From: Nitrospira sp.
GTDB taxonomy: Bacteria > Nitrospirota > Nitrospiria > Nitrospirales > Nitrospiraceae
Length of the DNA: 33,953 bases
Direction of reading: 5' to 3'
Assembly: GCA_029881435.1 (NCBI GenBank)
Contig: JAOUMR010000031.1
Location: forward strand, 1-33,953
Both the position numbers and the translations under genes were made by a program. Positions 14,183 through 23,310 of this stretch are shown here, one piece after another (position 1 is the stretch's first letter; every line of letters starts with the position of its first letter). The notes under the pieces were generated by a model, which worked only from the letters and a program-made list of their open reading frames with translations, was not told the DNA's origin and ran no database searches.

Positions 14183-15628
14183 CTACTTGATTCCTTGCCC
14201 AGCTGACCTTGGAGCAAACATCTCAAAGATGCTTGGTTCCCGCTCCATATAGTCTGGTGGGAAGAAGTTAAATCGTCGCCACAGTTCGTACCAGAGAGGG
14301 ACACGATTGAGGATCACCCACCCTAAGACTCTCGTTCCTTGCCGCACCTGCGCTTGATCCGGCCAGGGTTGAGAATCCTCAGGGTCAGGCACGACCCAGA
14401 ATCGGTAGTTCCCTTTGCCATCATCGATCTGATCGACCACCTTGATCACACCAGAGCGAGTACCAGCCATGAGCCCTGGCCAGGCCGGCAATGGAATGGC
14501 CGGCACTCCGAAGAACAGGATCTTGACCTTCCGCCCAGGAACCAAGAGGGGAGCATCCAACCCTTCGGCCGTCATTTCGATCGCTGGATCGGACGCAAGT
14601 GGTGAAATAGTAACTAGATTATCTCCCTGCTTGACCGTTTCGTTAATTCCAACTCGGGCCATTTTGACAACGGTCCCATCCATAGGGGCATAGAGCTGGG
14701 CGGCCTCGATACGTTGTTGGACACCCTGCTGCTTGTAGGACATGTCGGCCAACTGTTCAGTGGCCTTTGCAGCTTCGGCTACCGCAGCATCGCGTGATGC
14801 CACCGCATCCAGGAGTTTCTGATTCACATCGGCTGTAATCTGATCGCGACCGAAGTTAAGAGCTGAACGGCCCTGTTCCGCCGCTAGAAGATTAGCCTGA
14901 GCTGCCTGCAGAGCCGCTTTGCTCCCGATTTCAGTTTGGATCGTCAATTCGAGCTCTCGTTGTGAAACGAGTCCATCCCTCACCAGTTGTCGATGCCGAT
15001 CAACGTTCAGTTGGGCTGTATCGACGTCGATCTTGGCCGCTTCGACCTTCTGCTGGGCTTCCCGTATTCGGTTATCGGCCTCGACCACACGGGCTTCAGC
15101 CGACGGTACGGCGGCTTGGACCAGTTTCTTCATCTCACCGATCCGTTTGGATAGCTGGTCGGCCTTGGCCAAAGCTGCCTGGCGCGTTTTCCCCAGTGCA
15201 TCCTTACGTTGTTCGAACAGGGGAAGGATCTCAGGCGCCATATAGGTCGGGTCATAGTCCTCAAGCTCACCGATGAGGTCCCCCTTTTTAACCTTGACAC
15301 CTTCATAGATATGCCAAGCCTTAACCCGTCCAGTGATTCGGGATTCGATCTTTTGTGGTCGATCGTAAGGCGTATAGGCCGAGACTTGGCCCTGCGCACT
15401 GATCGTCTGTGTCCAGGGCACGAACTCAAGGATGATCAGAAACACGAGAAGGATCGTGAGGATAGCTCGCGACGCCGTGAACATCCCACCGGAAAGTTTC
15501 ACAGCCTCCCAACAGGACAATGTCGACAAGGCTGATCCCTGTTCGATCGTGATTGCCTCCAACCCAACACCCTTCGTTGCGAGCGCACGCTCTCCACTTC
15601 TTTCGAGACCACCACCTAGACTAGCCAT
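14183..15628 (-). CDS. HlyD family periplasmic adaptor (membrane fusion protein)
   Basis: The protein has 481 residues. A cytoplasmic N-terminal ~48 residues precede one membrane helix (AILTILLVFLIILEFVPW). The periplasmic part starts with a lipoyl-like half (KIESRITGRVKAWHIYEGVKVKKGDLIGEL), has a long coiled-coil hairpin (about residues 145-310, with heptads such as VVEADNRIREAQQKVEAAK), and then the second lipoyl half (IEAAQLYAPMDGTVVKMARVG) and a beta-barrel. The C-terminus has an unusual Trp/Pro-rich tail (VPLWYELWRRFNFFPPDYMERE). Such adaptors link an inner-membrane transporter to a TolC channel. It lies 51 bases downstream of the ABC gene; ATG 15628 has GGAGG upstream. Substrate unknown. 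Confidence 0.92.
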   Translation of the reverse strand: MASLGGGLERSGERALATKGVGLEAITIEQGSALSTLSCWEAVKLSGGMFTASRAILTILLVFLIILEFVPWTQTISAQGQVSAYTPYDRPQKIESRITGRVKAWHIYEGVKVKKGDLIGELEDYDPTYMAPEILPLFEQRKDALGKTRQAALAKADQLSKRIGEMKKLVQAAVPSAEARVVEADNRIREAQQKVEAAKIDVDTAQLNVDRHRQLVRDGLVSQRELELTIQTEIGSKAALQAAQANLLAAEQGRSALNFGRDQITADVNQKLLDAVASRDAAVAEAAKATEQLADMSYKQQGVQQRIEAAQLYAPMDGTVVKMARVGINETVKQGDNLVTISPLASDPAIEMTAEGLDAPLLVPGRKVKILFFGVPAIPLPAWPGLMAGTRSGVIKVVDQIDDGKGNYRFWVVPDPEDSQPWPDQAQVRQGTRVLGWVILNRVPLWYELWRRFNFFPPDYMEREPSIFEMFAPRSAGQGIK

Positions 15629-15679: not shown

Positions 15680-17356
15680 CTATGCATGGGCATGGTGTAG
15701 CATAATCCGACGATCGGCATGATCCGTCAGGTTTGGATCCGTTGATACAAAGATCACCGACCATGCTTCGTCCTTAGAGCACAGGCGACGCAGCACCCTT
15801 TCTCTCAACGATGGCTCGAGCGCGTGAATAAGCCCATCGAATATCAGAACTTGTGGATGGCCCAGGATAGCGCGGGACAACAAGATCTGCACGATGTGCG
15901 TCGGCGAAAGCGATTCTCCAAGTGAAGAGACCTCTGATTTCACCCCGCGTGGCAAGGCGTCGATATCTTCCTCCAGTTCGGTAAAGCGGAGGGCCCAGCT
16001 CAGGTCGTCATAGGTCACATAGGAACGTCCCATGACGATGTTTTCTTCGATCGTTCCCTGGACCAACGTCAATTGAGAATCAAGCATGACGCTGCGGACT
16101 TGGTTGAGACCATTGGGATCCATGTAACGCAGATCCACCCCGTTGTACTGCACAACTCCGTTGGTCGGGGTTTCGAGACCCCCTAAGACTCTAGCCAGCG
16201 CGGTTTTGGCCATCGTAGTCTTGGCGTAGATGCCAAGCTTCTCTCCGGGCGCCACATCCAAGTTGAAGCCATCAAATACGGAGGCTCCACCGTGAATCAG
16301 GCTGACAGCTTTGCAGGTAACTCGGACACCCTGGGTTAAATGCTTCGGCATTCCCACCGGTGATTCAACCGAGACGTAATCTTGCTCTTGCTGAAAGACC
16401 GTATCAAGGTGAGTGAGGGCTGTGAAGAAGTAGTACACGAACCCCATGTTCTTGATGAGCGTGTCAAAATTAATAACCAGCGCACCGACCACCGCTTGGA
16501 CGGCGACTAACTGACCGAGGGTCAACTGGCCAATGGACATAAGATAGGCCGCTATGCCAAGTGCGCCTGCCTGTGCGAACGCTTGCCCTCCCACAGAACC
16601 GACGTACTGACGCACGAGGACACGAAATCGTGCCTTTCGAGCGTCAACATAATGGTTCACGAGGTCATTCGTCTTCTGCAGGATATACGCACGGCTGTCG
16701 GTCGCTTTAAATTGCAACGAATTCTGCGCAACCTCCTGAACCCATCGAAAGGTATCGTACTTCGCGTGAGACATGTCGAGGGTTGTCCTCAGTGCCCCGC
16801 GAGAGAGGACAAAGAATGTGATTGCGAACCCCGCCAGAAGAAGCAAGTTGAACATGAGAAAATACGGGTGGTAGACCATCAGCAAGAGCATCCCGACCGT
16901 CCCACCCACGACCACATTGATCAAATCGAACAGCAGGGTGGACAACGCCCGCTGCATAAAGACCGTTTCCATGAAGTAGTTCGCAATGTGAGTCTGCGAG
17001 GCCTTAAATCGATTCCGAGGAAGCTGTTCAACCATCGCCACTGTGATTCTGGCAAAGACGCGACGTTGGATGACGTCTATCGCATAAAAGTGGAATGTCT
17101 TGAACAAGCCGACGAACAACAACACCAACAGCATGACCGCCGTCAATGTCCAGATCATGACTGGCTGAACCGCATAGGAGAAGGTGCTAACCAACTCCTG
17201 TACGGTCAACGGAATGATCAGCGAAAAGAACGCGACCGCCAAGGCGTAGGAAAAGATCAGGTACATGATCCTTTTCTCAGCCTTCATGGCCACGGACAGC
17301 TGCTTCATCAACGCTTCAAACAGGCCCGGATAACGATTGCCCTGAGGTTCTTTCAT
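15680..17356 (-). CDS. ABC exporter (permease-ATPase fusion) with degenerate nucleotide-binding domain
   Basis: The 558-residue protein has a type 1 secretion/exporter layout: a six-helix transmembrane domain (about residues 25-310), then a nucleotide-binding domain (about 345-555). The NBD keeps its fold-level landmarks (APGEKLGIY, GVVQYNGVDLRYMDP, GTIEENI, DALPRGV, LLSRAILGHPQVLIFD), but the catalytic motifs are eroded. Walker A reads AKTTMAKTAL in place of GxSGSGKSTL, keeping only Lys and Thr. The signature LSGGQ is LSPTH. The Walker B aspartate is followed by Gly instead of the catalytic Glu (LIFDGLIHALE). The H-loop His is Thr (FVSTDPN). It probably cannot hydrolyse ATP in the normal way. 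It may pair with another half-transporter or act as a scaffold. No N-terminal C39 peptidase domain is present. It lies between TolC-like genes and the HlyD gene. Confidence 0.9.
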   Translation of the reverse strand: MKEPQGNRYPGLFEALMKQLSVAMKAEKRIMYLIFSYALAVAFFSLIIPLTVQELVSTFSYAVQPVMIWTLTAVMLLVLLFVGLFKTFHFYAIDVIQRRVFARITVAMVEQLPRNRFKASQTHIANYFMETVFMQRALSTLLFDLINVVVGGTVGMLLLMVYHPYFLMFNLLLLAGFAITFFVLSRGALRTTLDMSHAKYDTFRWVQEVAQNSLQFKATDSRAYILQKTNDLVNHYVDARKARFRVLVRQYVGSVGGQAFAQAGALGIAAYLMSIGQLTLGQLVAVQAVVGALVINFDTLIKNMGFVYYFFTALTHLDTVFQQEQDYVSVESPVGMPKHLTQGVRVTCKAVSLIHGGASVFDGFNLDVAPGEKLGIYAKTTMAKTALARVLGGLETPTNGVVQYNGVDLRYMDPNGLNQVRSVMLDSQLTLVQGTIEENIVMGRSYVTYDDLSWALRFTELEEDIDALPRGVKSEVSSLGESLSPTHIVQILLSRAILGHPQVLIFDGLIHALEPSLRERVLRRLCSKDEAWSVIFVSTDPNLTDHADRRIMLHHAHA

Positions 17357-17484: not shown

Positions 17485-19056
17485 TTAATCACGCCCACGA
17501 GCCACACGGCCAGACGAACCAGCCGCATGCAATGCATCACCGTATTTGGCGAGTACGTTCTCCGCGAGCGGCTTCGACAACGATCCTTTGGCCCACAACA
17601 TCCCTCCCCGGGACACTGCATAGTCGGCTTGGGCACGGTAGAGCTCGTAAGCCGCCTCGACGACCGCACGCTCCCGCAAGTTGACGAACAGCACACTCGT
17701 CGCCCCCATATTGAACCGAGCCCGTTCGCCCTCTTCTAACGTCTTGGCCAAGCGAAGGGCTTCCGTTCCAGCTTTCACTCGGTCCCGAGCGCGCACAATC
17801 GCTGAGAGCCAGTTGTCTACGTCGATCTCGACCTGACGCTCGGTGTAGGCTTGCTTCCAGGCCAATCGTTCCTGCTCAGCCTGAGCGTGAAGGACCTTCC
17901 CGCGGGGGCCCCGATTGAACAACGGCATACTGAAGCGAACCTGCATATTGTAGCCGAACCCGCCAATCCAATAGAGAGAGCCCACTGCCGGCCCACCTGA
18001 AAACGTTAGCTTTGGAAGCAAACTATTCTTGGCCAATTTTAGTTCGATATTGTTTAATCTGGCTTCGATGTAGAGATCGCGTACTTCCGGGCGATCCTCC
18101 GCAGCTTCCACCTTAAAGGCCGCTACATCCTCTTCGCTCGGCAACGGCGTTTCCCCCTGAAATTCCGGGGCCCATTCAGGGCGAGGTGTCACAGGTTGGC
18201 CGTCTTCCCAGAGAAAGAGCGCAAGCTTATATTGCTCATACTCGACCTTCCGTTGCGCGGCAATGGCAGCCTCTCGACGCCGCTGAACTTCTTCTTGGGC
18301 CTCGACCACGTCGATCGGAGCGACCGCACCGCCTTTTGATCTCCCCTCAACCATGCGATACCGGTCTTCCGCGACGGCCAACGCACGCTTCACCATCTCG
18401 GCCTGTTTGACGGCGACCTGCCAATCCCAGTATTGCACGGCGCCGGCGAGATAGAGATCTTGCCGTTTCTGGGCCACCTTCACTTCGGCTTGCGGCCCGG
18501 CGAGCTCCGCCTGTTGAAACTCGGCATACTCTTCGTTGATCATGAATCCCCGCAGGAGATTCATCGCTCCGCCGACGATCAGCATTTGCTGCGGCCAGTA
18601 CAGTTGGAGGTCTTGAGGGAAGGCTACCAAACTCCCGCGGGTTCCTGAATTGATAGTGTGGCGATCACCGAAACCATTGCGAATACCCCCGAACACCTCA
18701 ATGCCCCAGGGATGCGCCACTTTGAGCATGGTATCGCTATAGCCGCTCGTCAAGTCATTCGGTATGCCGGACACGTTCGTCAGATTATAGGTGACATACC
18801 GATCCATCTCGACCTCGTTCCGAACCCTCGGCTCCCATGCACCCAACGCTTTCAGCACTTTCGCGCGAGCCTGCGACCGCTCCAGCCCGGTGGCCCGGAG
18901 CAACGGATGGGTCAACTCAATTCTGGCCAACACCTCTTCAATGGTCAGGGGAGCTGTCCGCACAGACTCGGCGCTTGGTGCACTCGCCGAGGCGTGAGGT
19001 TCTGCCGCGACGGCCGCCGGGACAATCATCAACGAGATCAACAATAGAAGAATCAA
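17485..19056 (-). CDS. TolC-family outer membrane factor, third in tandem
   Basis: The protein has 523 residues: a Sec signal peptide (MILLLLISLMIVPAAVAA), then two outer-membrane-efflux repeats with long helices. It shares with its two neighbours the blocks EEVLARIELTHPLLRATG, QKRQDLYLAGAVQYWDWQVA, RPEWAPEFQGETPLP, DVDNWLSAIVRARDRVKA and LAKTLEEGERARFNMGA. It is the most diverged of the three copies. Its start is TTG 19056, exactly where the other two copies have ATG relative to a shared GGAGCATCC leader, so it may be translated less efficiently. It is transcribed after the other two copies and 128 bases before the ABC gene. Expected role: trimeric channel across the outer membrane and periplasm. 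Confidence 0.92.
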   Translation of the reverse strand: MILLLLISLMIVPAAVAAEPHASASAPSAESVRTAPLTIEEVLARIELTHPLLRATGLERSQARAKVLKALGAWEPRVRNEVEMDRYVTYNLTNVSGIPNDLTSGYSDTMLKVAHPWGIEVFGGIRNGFGDRHTINSGTRGSLVAFPQDLQLYWPQQMLIVGGAMNLLRGFMINEEYAEFQQAELAGPQAEVKVAQKRQDLYLAGAVQYWDWQVAVKQAEMVKRALAVAEDRYRMVEGRSKGGAVAPIDVVEAQEEVQRRREAAIAAQRKVEYEQYKLALFLWEDGQPVTPRPEWAPEFQGETPLPSEEDVAAFKVEAAEDRPEVRDLYIEARLNNIELKLAKNSLLPKLTFSGGPAVGSLYWIGGFGYNMQVRFSMPLFNRGPRGKVLHAQAEQERLAWKQAYTERQVEIDVDNWLSAIVRARDRVKAGTEALRLAKTLEEGERARFNMGATSVLFVNLRERAVVEAAYELYRAQADYAVSRGGMLWAKGSLSKPLAENVLAKYGDALHAAGSSGRVARGRD

Positions 19057-19060
19057 GGAA

Positions 19061-19072
19061 GGATGCTCCTTT
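19061..19072 (-). promoter_or_regulatory. Shared Shine-Dalgarno leader, copy at third TolC gene
   Basis: AAAGGAGCATCC precedes the TTG start by a few bases; from GGAG to the start codon there are nine bases, the same as in the two sister copies. The conservation of the bases after GGAG, not only the ribosome binding core, reflects the tandem duplication. Confidence 0.7.
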
Positions 19073-19081
19073 GTTGCTGAA

Positions 19082-20626
19082 TTAATCGCGTCCTGACACT
19101 GGATGACCCGAAAGACCAGCCGCCGTTAGCGGATTGCCATACTTCGCCAAGGATTCCTCCGGCCATGGCTTCGACAGCACGCCCCGTGCCCACAACATCC
19201 CTCCACGCGCCACGGCGTAGTCGGCCTGCGCCCGATACAGTTGGTACGCCGATTCCACCACGTTGCGTTCACGGAGGTTCACAAAGAGCACGGTGGTCGC
19301 GCCCAAATTGAATCGGGTCCGTTCGCCCTCTTCCAGCGTCTTGGCCAGCCGCAGCGCTTCCGACGCGGCTTTCACCCGATCCCGGGCCCGAACGATCGCC
19401 GAAAGCCAGTTGTCCACGTCGACGCTGACCTGTTGCTCGGCATACAGCTGGCTGAAGACCAATTGTTGCTGCTCCGCCTCTGCAGTCAGGACCTTTCCCC
19501 GCCCTTCCCGCTGGAGCAGCGGCATCGCAAACTGTAGTCCAAAATGATACCCCACGCCCACAGCCCAGTCTCCGGGGGTATCCATCCGTCCCCCCTCAAA
19601 ATTCAACTTCGGGAGGAGGTAGTTCTTGGCCAGCTTGAGATCAATATTGTTCATCTTGGCTTCGATGTAGTAATTGCGCACTTCCGGCCGATCTTCCTTT
19701 GCCTCCACTTTATAGCCCGCGATCTCCTCCTTAGTCGGAAGCGGCGTTTCGCCCTGGAATTCCGGCGCCCATTCAGGGCGCGGCGTCACTGGCTCGCCAT
19801 GCTCCCAGAGAAAGAGGGACAGGTTGTACTGCTCATACTCCACCTTCCGTTGCGCGGCGATCGCCGCCTCGCGCCGATTCTGCACCTCTTGGTTCACCTC
19901 GACGACATCGAGCGGCGCGACCTTCCCACCCTTGGCCAGCCCTTCGACCTGGACCAAGCGGTCTTCGGCCACGGCCAAGGCGCGCGTCACCATCTCGGCC
20001 TGTTTAACCGCGACCTGCCAATCCCAGTACTGCACGGCCCCGGCGAGATAGAGGTCTTGCCGTTTCTGCGCCACCGCGATCTCCGCCATCGGCCCGGCGA
20101 GCTGGGCCTTCTGGTACTCCGCGTACTCGTCGTTGATCATGAAGCCGCGCAGCAGCTTGAACTTTCCGCCGAAAATCATTTGCTGCTGTTCCCAGAAGAG
20201 ATTTAAATCAGTGATGAAGCCAGATTGATTGAAAAAGGAGCGATCCCCGAACCCGTTGCGGATCCCGCCATGGACCTCGAAGCCCCAGGGATGCCCGACC
20301 ACGAGCTTACTGTCGTTATAACCCACCGTGTGCTCATGCAAGTTGGATAGAAAATTGTAATCCTGATACCGATCGACTTCGGTAAAGTTATTGAACTTCG
20401 GTTCCCAGGCCCCGAGCGCCTTGAGAATTTTCGCCCGAGCCTGTATCCGCTCGACCCCGGTCGCCCGAAGCAAGGGATGCGTCAACTCGATTCGAGCCAG
20501 TACTTCATCGATGGTCAGAGGTTCGGTGCGCGTCGCCTGCTCCTGCACGACACTCGAATCGATCACCGGTTCCGCCAGTGCCGTCACTGGGAGCAAGATC
20601 AGAATCACGAATAATAGAGCGGCCAT
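19082..20626 (-). CDS. TolC-family outer membrane factor, second in tandem
   Basis: The protein has about 514 residues from ATG 20626 (the frame also includes a TTG one codon upstream). The signal peptide is MAALLFVILILLPVTALA. Domain order is as in the neighbouring copies: LTIDEVLARIELTHPLLRATG near the N-terminus, then a variable stretch (about residues 78-165) around the constant GGIRNGFGDR, then helices with QKRQDLYLAGAVQYWDWQVA and DVDNWLSAIVRARDRVKA. It is closest to the first copy: an 81-base stretch (19900-19980) differs from 21481-21561 at only two bases. It lies 25 bases before the third copy and 36 bases after the first on the same strand. Predicted outer membrane channel. Confidence 0.92.
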   Translation of the reverse strand: MAALLFVILILLPVTALAEPVIDSSVVQEQATRTEPLTIDEVLARIELTHPLLRATGVERIQARAKILKALGAWEPKFNNFTEVDRYQDYNFLSNLHEHTVGYNDSKLVVGHPWGFEVHGGIRNGFGDRSFFNQSGFITDLNLFWEQQQMIFGGKFKLLRGFMINDEYAEYQKAQLAGPMAEIAVAQKRQDLYLAGAVQYWDWQVAVKQAEMVTRALAVAEDRLVQVEGLAKGGKVAPLDVVEVNQEVQNRREAAIAAQRKVEYEQYNLSLFLWEHGEPVTPRPEWAPEFQGETPLPTKEEIAGYKVEAKEDRPEVRNYYIEAKMNNIDLKLAKNYLLPKLNFEGGRMDTPGDWAVGVGYHFGLQFAMPLLQREGRGKVLTAEAEQQQLVFSQLYAEQQVSVDVDNWLSAIVRARDRVKAASEALRLAKTLEEGERTRFNLGATTVLFVNLRERNVVESAYQLYRAQADYAVARGGMLWARGVLSKPWPEESLAKYGNPLTAAGLSGHPVSGRD

Positions 20627-20630
20627 CAAA

Positions 20631-20641
20631 GGATGCTCCTT
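20631..20641 (-). promoter_or_regulatory. Shared Shine-Dalgarno leader, copy at second TolC gene
   Basis: AAGGAGCATCC sits before ATG 20626 with the same GGAG-to-start distance (nine bases) as in the other two TolC copies, and this fixes the start at 20626 rather than the preceding TTG. Confidence 0.75.
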
Positions 20642-20662
20642 GTGCCTGATGAATGTACCTGA

Positions 20663-22267
20663 CTAATCGCGGCCCGGCTGTTGAAACCCGTACGTACCGG
20701 CCGCCGTCATCGGATTCCCATACTTCGCCAAGGACTCCGTCGGCCATGGCTTCGACAGTACGCCCCTGGCCCACAACATCCCTCCACGCGCCACCGCATA
20801 GTCGGCCTGCGCCCGATACAGCTGATACGCTGATTCCACCACGTTACGTTCACGGAGGTTCACAAAGAGCACGGTGGTCGCGCCCATGTTGAACCGGGTC
20901 CGTTCGCCCTCTTCCAGCGTCTTGGCCAACCGCAGCGCTTCCGTCGCCGCTTTCACCCGATCCCTGGCCCGCACGATCGCCGAGAGCCAGTTGTCCACGT
21001 CGAGGTTGACTTGCTGCTCGGTATATTGCTGTTTCAACGCCAATTGTTGCTGGAGCACCTCCGCGCCCATGACCTTCCCACGCGCTCCCCGCTGGAACAG
21101 CGGCTGCTCAAAGTGAAGATTGACATGGTAGCCGACTCCCACAATCCAGTCGGTGGCAGCATCCGCCGGCCCCCCCTCAATATCCAACTTCGGGAGCAGG
21201 TGGTTTTTGGCGAGCTTGATGTCGATATTGTTCATCTTGGCTTCGATGTAGAGGTCCCGCACTTCCGGCCGAGCTTCATTCGCCTCCACTTTATAGGCCT
21301 CGACCTCGTTTTCGGTTGGAAGCGGCGTTTCGCCCTGGAATTCCGGCGCCCATTCCGGTCGTGGCGTCACCGGCTCGTTCTGCTCCCAGAGAAAGAGAGA
21401 TAGTTTGTACTGCTCGTACTCCACCTTCCGTTGTGCAGCAATCGCCGCCTCTCGCCGCTTCTGCACCTCTTGATTCGACTCGACGACATCGAGCGGCGCC
21501 ACCTTCCCGCCCTTGGCCAGCCCTTCGACCTGGACCAAGCGGTCTTCGGCCACGGCCAAGGCCCGCTTCACAATCTCGGCCTGCTTGACGGCGACCTGCC
21601 AATCCCAATACTGCACCGCCCCGGCAAGATAGAGATCCTGCCGTTTCTGTGCCACCTTGATCTCCGCCTGCGGCCCCGCGAGTTCAGCCTGTTGATACTC
21701 GGCGTACTCTTCGTTGATCATCAGGCCGCGCAGCAGCTTGAACGACCCACCGACGATGAATTGCTGCCACTTATGGAGCCCCTGTAGGTCAGGGATAGCA
21801 GAAAGAATATTACTGCCGCGATCCCCGAAGCCGTTGCGGATCCCGCCATGGACCTTGAATCCCCAGGGATGCCCGACCTCGAGCTTGCTGTCGTTAAATC
21901 CCGCCATCAACCTTTGCGGCTGAAGCGGGTCGCATAATGGGTCGGGCGAACTTGGTGAGGCGCAGGTTAAGCCGGCGACGGGAGCCGTCGTGAGATTCCA
22001 CGTTTCATACCGTTCAGCCTCTGTAATGTTATGGAACGTCGGTTCCCAGACCCCGAGTGCCTTGAGAATTTTCGCCCGGGCCTTGGTTCGCTCGGCTCCG
22101 GCCGCCTGAAGCAGCGGATGCGTCAACTCGATGCGAGCCAGCACTTCATCAATGGTCAATGGAGCAGTGCGCGTCGACTGGGCCTGCACGGCACGCGAGT
22201 CGATCACCGGTTCCGCCAGTGCGGTCATTGGCAGGAGAGTCACAAGGGCCAATACCAGAGCGATCAT
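20663..22267 (-). CDS. TolC-family outer membrane factor, first in tandem
   Basis: The protein has 534 residues, slightly longer than the sister copies because the variable surface-like stretch after EAERYETWNLTT has an insertion of about 15 residues with two cysteines (LTCASPSSPDPLCDPL), possibly a disulfide-closed loop. The signal peptide is MIALVLALVTLLPMTALA. The common TolC blocks are all present. It is the promoter-proximal gene of the run TolC-TolC-TolC-ABC-HlyD and is divergent from the LysR-type regulator, 143 bases away. ATG 22267 has AAAGGAGCATCC upstream. It should form a trimeric channel with an HlyD-type adaptor. Confidence 0.93.
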   Translation of the reverse strand: MIALVLALVTLLPMTALAEPVIDSRAVQAQSTRTAPLTIDEVLARIELTHPLLQAAGAERTKARAKILKALGVWEPTFHNITEAERYETWNLTTAPVAGLTCASPSSPDPLCDPLQPQRLMAGFNDSKLEVGHPWGFKVHGGIRNGFGDRGSNILSAIPDLQGLHKWQQFIVGGSFKLLRGLMINEEYAEYQQAELAGPQAEIKVAQKRQDLYLAGAVQYWDWQVAVKQAEIVKRALAVAEDRLVQVEGLAKGGKVAPLDVVESNQEVQKRREAAIAAQRKVEYEQYKLSLFLWEQNEPVTPRPEWAPEFQGETPLPTENEVEAYKVEANEARPEVRDLYIEAKMNNIDIKLAKNHLLPKLDIEGGPADAATDWIVGVGYHVNLHFEQPLFQRGARGKVMGAEVLQQQLALKQQYTEQQVNLDVDNWLSAIVRARDRVKAATEALRLAKTLEEGERTRFNMGATTVLFVNLRERNVVESAYQLYRAQADYAVARGGMLWARGVLSKPWPTESLAKYGNPMTAAGTYGFQQPGRD

Positions 22268-22410: not shown

Positions 22411-23310
22411 ATGGAATGGCTGAACTATCATCACTTATTGTATTTCTGGTCCGTCGCCAAACACGGCACCATGACGAAGGCGTGCGAGGAGCTCCGCCTC
22501 GCGCAACCCACGATCAGTGGACAGATCCGTCTCTTGGAAAACACGCTGGGGGAAAAGTTATTTATCCGCACCGGACGCCGCCTCGCGTTGACGGAGATGG
22601 GCCACCTGGCCTTCAAATACGCAGAAGATATCTTCGCCACCGGCCAAGAGCTCCTGCACACGGTCAAGAGCCAAGGGCATGAGCACCCTACCCGGCTGGT
22701 CGTGGGTATCGCAGACGCCATCCCGAAACCCCTCGCGACGCAGCTCCTCAAATCGGCCCTAAAACTGTACCGGCCGACTCGCTTGATCTGTCAGGAAGAC
22801 AAGCTGCGCCAACTGCTAGCCGATCTGACTGCGCATCGGTCGGATTTGGTGATTGCTGATACCCCGGCTCCGCCGGGGATTAAGGAGCACATCTACAACC
22901 ATCCGTTAGGTGAATCTGGAGTGACACTCTTCGCGACTGCGAGGTTGGCCGGCCAGTATCGTCGAGATTTTCCGCGCTCGTTACGCAGCGCGCCCATGCT
23001 GTTGCCCACCCCGAATGCGATGCTTCGACGGTTATTGGATCAATGGATGGTCCAGCATGGCCTCCATCCGGTCATTGTTGGTGAGTTTGACGACAGCGCA
23101 ACCTTGAAGGCGTTCGGCCAGGACGGATATGGCATCTTCCCCGGCGCAACGGTGATCGAGAAGGAGATCTGCCGCCAGTACCGGGTGCAGGTGGTCGGAC
23201 AGTTGGAGGCGCTCAAGCAACATTTCTATGCGATCACGGTGGAACGACGCGTCAAACACCAGGCCGTCCTGGCGCTCGTGCGCACGGCCCGGCGAGAACT
23301 GCAGGGCTGA
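22411..23310 (+). CDS. LysR-type transcriptional regulator, NhaR-like
   Basis: The 299-residue protein has an N-terminal winged helix-turn-helix (about residues 3-62) with NYHHLLYFWSVAKHGTMTKA and LAQPTISGQIRLLENTLGEK, closely matching the NhaR branch of the LysR family. An effector-binding domain follows (about 90-295), with DLVIADTP and LLPTPNAMLRRLL. NhaR relatives sense Na+ or pH and activate antiporter or surface-structure genes, but the ligand here is unknown. The gene diverges from the TolC-ABC-HlyD run, and the intergenic dyad suggests it controls that run as well as itself. It converges with rluF, with 72 bases between stops. Confidence 0.92.
   Translation: MEWLNYHHLLYFWSVAKHGTMTKACEELRLAQPTISGQIRLLENTLGEKLFIRTGRRLALTEMGHLAFKYAEDIFATGQELLHTVKSQGHEHPTRLVVGIADAIPKPLATQLLKSALKLYRPTRLICQEDKLRQLLADLTAHRSDLVIADTPAPPGIKEHIYNHPLGESGVTLFATARLAGQYRRDFPRSLRSAPMLLPTPNAMLRRLLDQWMVQHGLHPVIVGEFDDSATLKAFGQDGYGIFPGATVIEKEICRQYRVQVVGQLEALKQHFYAITVERRVKHQAVLALVRTARRELQG

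Follow-up and report, generated by a model that had tools for sequence, protein, structure and literature searches.

An ABC-exporter-fold protein of 558 amino acids encoded in the 33,953-nucleotide stretch of Nitrospira DNA analyzed here (the window) belongs to a family in which no member examined, across three phyla, has a complete ATP site. Judging from its conservation among relatives, the protein is a genuine member of this conserved family, and neither decay nor an error of sequencing accounts for it. Best read as the inner-membrane part of a tripartite exporter, it has, on strong comparative support, no ATP hydrolysis at its own sites, and analogy with known systems suggests that the family is probably powered by another energy source than ATP. 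The nucleotide-binding domain (NBD) is constrained in one lineage (Nitrospira), drifting in another (sphingomonads), and deleted in a third (three species of Nitrospirales). Taken as a whole, we lean slightly toward the reading that this is a nonhydrolyzing ABC-fold subunit of a tripartite exporter, with a transmembrane domain (TMD) that would be driven by an ion gradient and an NBD that, in Nitrospira, would serve a structural or regulatory role.

Fold and altered motifs of the window protein

The gene (positions 15680 to 17356, minus strand, as are all of its parts given below) is a single intact frame of 558 codons and encodes a TMD (residues 1 to 330; 16367 to 17356), the counterpart of which stands alone in three species, followed by a degenerate NBD (residues 343 to 558; 15683 to 16330). 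The Pfam model PF00005 (ABC_tran) matches residues 362 to 507 with 34.1 bits against a cut-off of 25, and no Pfam match to the ABC_membrane domain was obtained in the protein. With NCBIfam models, the protein aligns end to end with NHLP and type I secretion exporters (E of about 1e-32), at bit scores six to eight times under the respective cut-offs; the scores against the type I secretion models TIGR03375 (110.1, cut-off 693.1), TIGR01846 (88.1, cut-off 725.55), and TIGR01842 (86.8, cut-off 510.15) are all below. These matches bear out an earlier, sequence-only reading of this DNA, which held that the protein aligns across the NBD. In an AlphaFold2 model of the full-length protein (pLDDT of 69.5), the NBD is well predicted, and the best foldseek match is HlyB in the HlyB/D complex (7sgr and 8dck; E of 4.9e-19). 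Because the AlphaFold2 models are of moderate quality (pLDDT of 69.5 here and 64 for a TMD-only relative), we used the fold alone and not side-chain geometry.

All of the changes that the sequence-only reading had quoted, in Walker A, the signature, the catalytic Glu, and the H-loop His, are present in the protein. The Walker A position (residues 377 to 387; 16196 to 16228) reads YAKTTMAKTAL, and the signature position (residues 483 to 487; 15896 to 15910) reads LSPTH. At the Walker B/D-loop position (residues 503 to 514; 15815 to 15850), the catalytic Glu is G508 and the D loop is replaced, with a family motif, DGxxH, in this region. The Q-loop position (residues 425 to 435; 16052 to 16084) has lost its Gln (S427), and the H-loop position (residues 538 to 541; 15734 to 15745) reads STDP, with T539 in place of His.

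Conservation of the altered NBD in Nitrospirales

Homologs were collected from the window's own genus and order, a phylum sample of 396 genomes, and named GTDB contigs, mostly from Nitrospira MAGs, and motifs were counted over 174 distinct full-length homologs of the order Nitrospirales at 37 to 100% identity. Gly occupies the position of the catalytic Glu in 174 of 174 homologs, and a His three residues past this Gly (H511 in the window protein), which completes the new DGxxH motif, is present in 173. The H-loop His, replaced by Thr or Asn, and the first Gly of Walker A are retained in none of the 174, and the Q-loop Gln is retained in 2. None of these homologs contains GxxGxGK[ST], and the signature position never reads LSGGQ; both regular-expression matches to it fall in the TMD. 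The complete set of Walker A, LSGGQ, Walker B Glu, and H-loop His is thus present in 0 of 174. The Lys of Walker A is retained in 150 homologs, and G-K-S/T is found in 24, from which nucleotide binding without hydrolysis appears possible. The NBD also has nearly invariant residues proper to the family, namely, N405, R421, N439, R444, R495, G508, H511, W532, and D540.

Over 249 pairs with dS of <1.2, the NBD has a median dN/dS (NG86) of 0.042, compared with 0.097 in the TMD, 0.041 in the membrane fusion protein (MFP) encoded by the neighboring gene, and 0.188 in the adjacent outer membrane efflux protein (OEP1). By these values, selection maintains the altered NBD in Nitrospira. The view of the sequence-only reading that this is a conserved noncanonical NBD and not a pseudogene is therefore upheld, with intact frames in 174 homologs, no canonical member among those aligned, and purifying selection on the NBD (dN/dS of about 0.04). 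A canonical ortholog at the same locus, which that reading had named as the sign of a decaying or erroneous copy, was found in none of the 396 genomes of the phylum. Its description of the motifs as eroded is only partly apt, as in Nitrospira the changed motif has become fixed and evolves under constraint. Within the phylum sample, matches to the family occur in just two families, both in the window's own order.

A five-gene operon for a tripartite exporter

The window gene lies within a five-gene same-strand run, OEP3-OEP2-OEP1-ABC-MFP (22267 to 14183, minus strand), and the intact frame within such a run had been correctly described from the sequence alone. Three genes for TolC-type outer membrane efflux proteins, OEP3 (534 amino acids; 20663 to 22267), OEP2 (515 amino acids; 19082 to 20629), and OEP1 (523 amino acids; 17485 to 19056), lie upstream, and a gene for an HlyD-type MFP (481 amino acids; 14183 to 15628), a family that tracks the degenerate ABC protein across phyla, lies downstream. 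ABC, MFP, and OEP genes are kept together in the main groups (the window group, the 50 to 60% group, and family f3). In the phylum sample, the ABC gene was found in 111 and the MFP gene in 111 of the 396 genomes, with 110 genomes common to both. The genes purE/purK and rluE adjoin the operon in much of the order Nitrospirales. OEP1, OEP2, and OEP3 (17485 to 22267) are tandem paralogs that are mutually 67 to 75% identical, beside one ABC gene and one MFP gene; OEP1 evolves faster (dN/dS of 0.19) than the ABC protein and MFP, and relatives of other groups have a single OEP.

A divergent gene (22411 to 23310, plus strand) encodes a LysR-type regulator of the NhaR family (NF008284; 231.5 bits, cut-off 219), which probably regulates the operon; a homolog of this gene lies next to the operon in numerous relatives. 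An NhaR-type LysR gene adjoins the operon in both Nitrospirales families (the window and loci L069, L072 to L075, and L087 to L089), which hints at a link to ion or pH stress. Other LysR genes occur near the sphingomonad and Aureibacter loci, and a gene for a Na+/H+ exchanger lies beside one solitary ABC copy (L079). Members of this solitary group, which are 37 to 46% identical and occur without MFP or OEP genes, are often found beside histidine kinase/response regulator genes (L071, L076 to L081, L211 to L220, L234, and L235). In many loci of family f1, a conserved membrane protein of about 262 amino acids with a 4HB_MCP_1 chemoreceptor-like sensory domain is encoded directly 3' of the ABC gene (for example, L047, 7192 to 7980, minus strand). 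Two contigs labeled Acidimicrobiia (L165) and Nitrosospira (L160) hold typical Nitrospirales family members, which suggests misbinned or mislabeled MAGs.

Seventeen loci carry tandem ABC paralogs, both of which are degenerate, and no canonical ABC half-transporter was found in the family's operons. The window's own genome encodes a second copy of the family (54%) and five other ABC exporters, located elsewhere, with normal motifs. No substrate gene adjoining the operon was recognized. Type I-like systems powered by SecA_DEAD offer the idea of an alternative ATPase (PMC4452313); no SecA_DEAD gene was recognized in the annotated neighborhoods of family loci.

Natural relatives that consist of the TMD alone

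In three species of one genus (f3/g3; genomes G078, G080, and G094), the ABC gene ends right after the TMD, at 337, 337, and 346 residues, respectively. These genes sit in the usual MFP-OEP-ABC order with the MFP and OEP genes upstream, and their products are 61 to 68% identical to the nearest full-length degenerate proteins, with which they nest in trees. Splitting of the NBD into a separate gene was ruled out, as the NBD is absent both at the locus and genome-wide: tblastn found no NBD remnant at the three loci, and no family NBD was found elsewhere in the three genomes, where the best profile matches (1e-29 to 1e-31) are ordinary ABC exporters that are also present in sister species. True family NBDs score 1e-89 in sister species with full-length genes. 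Apart from contig-end fragments, the TMD-only form was not found in the other f3 genomes searched.

In ABC exporters, two cytoplasmic loops of the TMD touch the NBD. The corresponding windows, intracellular loop 1 with coupling helix 1 (residues 108 to 125; 16982 to 17035) and intracellular loop 2 with coupling helix 2 (residues 208 to 226; 16679 to 16735), are diverged in the TMD-only homologs, the second also being shortened. Within these windows, TMD-only proteins share 19 to 38% identity with full-length proteins of their own clade, compared with 69 to 77% over the rest of the TMD and 51 to 97% in the same two windows between full-length proteins of that clade. Conserved positions are lost preferentially in the loop windows (Fisher P = 0.0025), including L112, P113, K217, and S221 together with a deletion of two to three residues, and the conserved charged TMD residues E27, E54, R99, R103, E130, R136, D144, H163, R240, and R243 are retained. 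Divergence of the loops with the rest of the TMD preserved is the pattern that a true loss of the NBD would leave in a TMD that remained in use.

The TMD-only genes have a dN/dS of 0.24 to 0.30, above that of Nitrospira TMDs; two full-length genes compared within this genus give 0.23. The operon of G094 has an in-frame TAG in its MFP gene (L088, about 5248), and the MFPs of the other two species are intact. From these dN/dS values and the stop in G094, the TMD-only branch may be partly decaying. The AlphaFold2 model of a TMD-only protein (pLDDT of 64) gave weak structural matches, which were again ABC exporters. The gene after the TMD-only ABC gene encodes a proton-antiporter-type (DabB-like) subunit and is followed by DabA (L087, L088, and L089), and DabB-like and DabA genes, for inorganic carbon uptake, also adjoin the module in Sphingobium sp. 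KCTC 72723 (L279, 77 to 3909). This proximity in two phyla may reflect a functional link or a shared regulator.

Relatives in Bacteroidota and sphingomonads

A tblastn search of plasmids recovered full-length ABC relatives at 24 to 26% identity, and the ABC-HlyD-TolC arrangement is found in Persicobacter, Aureibacter, and Riemerella (Bacteroidota) and in sphingomonads. This spread of the family over three phyla was out of reach of the sequence-only reading. With the window MFP as the query, 20 plasmid records were matched, all from Bacteroidota or sphingomonads, and a degenerate ABC gene lies beside the MFP homolog in 14 of the 14 records read. The NBDs of all these relatives are broken, each differently from those of Nitrospirota: Persicobacter has GYSNSGKN, LSTST, and LLLLND at its motifs; Riemerella keeps GDTASGKS and has LPYST, KE, and a Gln in place of His; and sphingomonads have lost Walker A and Walker B outright. 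The sphingomonad NBD evolves faster than the TMD (for example, 0.13 versus 0.07 and 0.35 versus 0.21), the opposite of Nitrospira. On a plasmid of Sphingopyxis sp. 113P3, the degenerate ABC gene is interrupted inside its NBD, beside an IS3-family transposase gene (L272, 4001 to 5428 and 5373 to 6736).

In trees, the clade of each phylum is supported at 90 to 100, and Nitrospirota plus Bacteroidota is supported at 100 in the full alignment. The degenerate clade of three phyla receives a weak UFBoot support of 71 to 72 against eight canonical exporters, which is compatible with either one ancestral loss or parallel losses.

Proposed mechanism and rival explanations

We propose that the protein would act as a homodimer or, where the gene is tandem, as a pair of two degenerate paralogs. 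The TMD would alternate access and use a gradient of H+ or Na+ to drive substrate efflux, as reported for NBD-less MsbA and LmrA and for SbmA, and HlyD and TolC would then take the substrate over the periplasm and outer membrane. That the NBD is so strongly constrained in Nitrospira implies that this domain does something important; our guess is that it may be a pseudo-ATPase docked on the coupling helices, holding the dimer or regulating its opening. The family has conserved acidic residues in the TMD (E27, E54, E130, and D144), and a comparison with the canonical exporters of the window's own genome singled out no convincing SbmA-type glutamate ladder among them. Of the two options in the sequence-only reading, a permease that is energized or gated differently fits best, given the TMD-only operons of three species, but we infer the energy source. 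More broadly, we see about an even chance that these genes represent a cross-phylum class of tripartite exporters in Nitrospirota, Bacteroidota, and Alphaproteobacteria, with an ABC-fold permease turned secondary transporter and caught at several stages: NBD repurposed (Nitrospira), drifting (sphingomonads), and deleted with the coupling loops released (three Nitrospirales species).

The main rival, which we take seriously even as we doubt it, is a ligand-gated or regulated conduit similar to CFTR or SUR, in which the NBD would gate the TMD by binding, but not hydrolyzing, a nucleotide or by binding some other ligand, with export proceeding down the substrate gradient or pulled by HlyD-TolC. 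The tight conservation under selection of the Nitrospira NBD, the nearly invariant residues proper to it, the Walker A Lys in 150 of 174 homologs, and the retention of most of Walker A in Persicobacter and Riemerella would all suit such gating, but the phosphate-wrapping glycines are gone in Nitrospira, and three species retain the operon with the NBD missing. The other option of the sequence-only reading, a nonhydrolyzing half of a heterodimer with a canonical half-transporter encoded elsewhere (of the TM287/288, TmrAB, or BmrCD type), is in our view unlikely. The five canonical exporters elsewhere in the genome could in principle supply a partner, and the 17 tandem loci make pairing inside the family plausible. 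However, the canonical exporters have a Walker A, Glu, and His of their own, the second half that was to be looked for is present in none of the operons, the tandem partners are degenerate as well, and TMD-only orthologs exist. A composite ATP site combines Walker A and Walker B of one subunit with the signature of the other (PMC7756269); as the window subunit has lost all of these, no complete composite site could form even with a canonical partner.

We consider it very improbable that ATP is hydrolyzed by a re-engineered site with new catalytic residues, such as His511 of DGxxH. Near invariance of this motif and strong purifying selection on the NBD could be read this way, but Gly replaces the general base in 174 of 174 homologs, the other ATP-contact motifs are changed too, other phyla carry different changes, and three species have no NBD. 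Least credible of all is a pseudogene, sequencing error, or slow decay. Although the faster NBDs of sphingomonads, the MFP stop in one TMD-only operon, and the Sphingopyxis copy cut at IS3 speak for decay, intact frames in 174 homologs, tighter purifying selection in the NBD than in the TMD, and order-wide conservation with a conserved operon speak against it. For Nitrospira, sequencing error and decay are refuted by a dN/dS far below 1 and the conserved altered motif.

Implications and comparison with known systems

ABC exporters are defined by ATP-driven transport. If the preferred reading is true, an ABC permease can be re-energized inside a tripartite exporter, and the family would offer naturally occurring stages of the transition between ABC and secondary transporters, a step implied by SbmA. 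Proteins annotated as ABC transporter ATP-binding proteins in Riemerella and sphingomonads may not be ATPases. In the full-text collection searched, which covers a minority of subscription papers and no bioRxiv preprints, we found no description of such a family.

Type I secretion ABC transporters (HlyB/LssB/PrtD; TIGR01846, TIGR03375, and TIGR01842) with HlyD and TolC are alike in fold, domain order, and three-gene module, and the family likewise co-encodes HlyD and TolC partners. NHLP and LssB exporters are the best NCBIfam matches of the window protein. However, the family is without any ATPase motif and scores about 110 bits against cut-offs of 693 to 853, the window protein is without the N-terminal peptidase-like domain, and some family members are without an NBD. 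In HlyB, the C39-like domain has no peptidase activity, yet secretion cannot do without it (PMC11026475); by analogy, the Nitrospira NBD may be an inactive domain retained for a different function. Heterodimeric exporters (TM287/288, TmrAB, BmrCD, and TAP) and Pdr5, in which all motifs of one site are changed (PMC7756269), likewise have degenerate motifs kept by selection, but they keep one complete hydrolytic site, whereas the family has none, even with a tandem paralog, and has neither a co-encoded canonical partner nor one complete composite site.

MsbA-MD, which lacks the NBD, uses a pH gradient to export ethidium, and LmrA is cited for the same (PMC4979069); these are laboratory truncations of working ABC transporters, whereas the TMD-only proteins of the family are natural. 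SbmA/BacA (SLiPT) is a proton-driven, ABC-derived TMD for which descent from a full-length ABC transporter has been proposed and which is now without an NBD and coupling helices (PMC13316013). The TMD-only Nitrospirales proteins resemble it in that their NBD is gone and the corresponding loops have diverged. However, SbmA is an importer and has a glutamate ladder and additional TM0 helices, which our comparisons did not show for the family, and it does not figure among the top structural matches. Members of SLiPT have no NBD, whereas the window protein has one and three of its relatives do not; the coupling helices lost in SLiPT are retained in the full-length forms of the family and diverged or shortened in the TMD-only forms. 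Unlike in SbmA/BacA, a form with a constrained but noncanonical NBD is widespread in the family. By these analogies, the family would be a tripartite ABC-fold exporter with a pseudo-ATPase rather than a member of SLiPT, working perhaps like SbmA or NBD-less MsbA.
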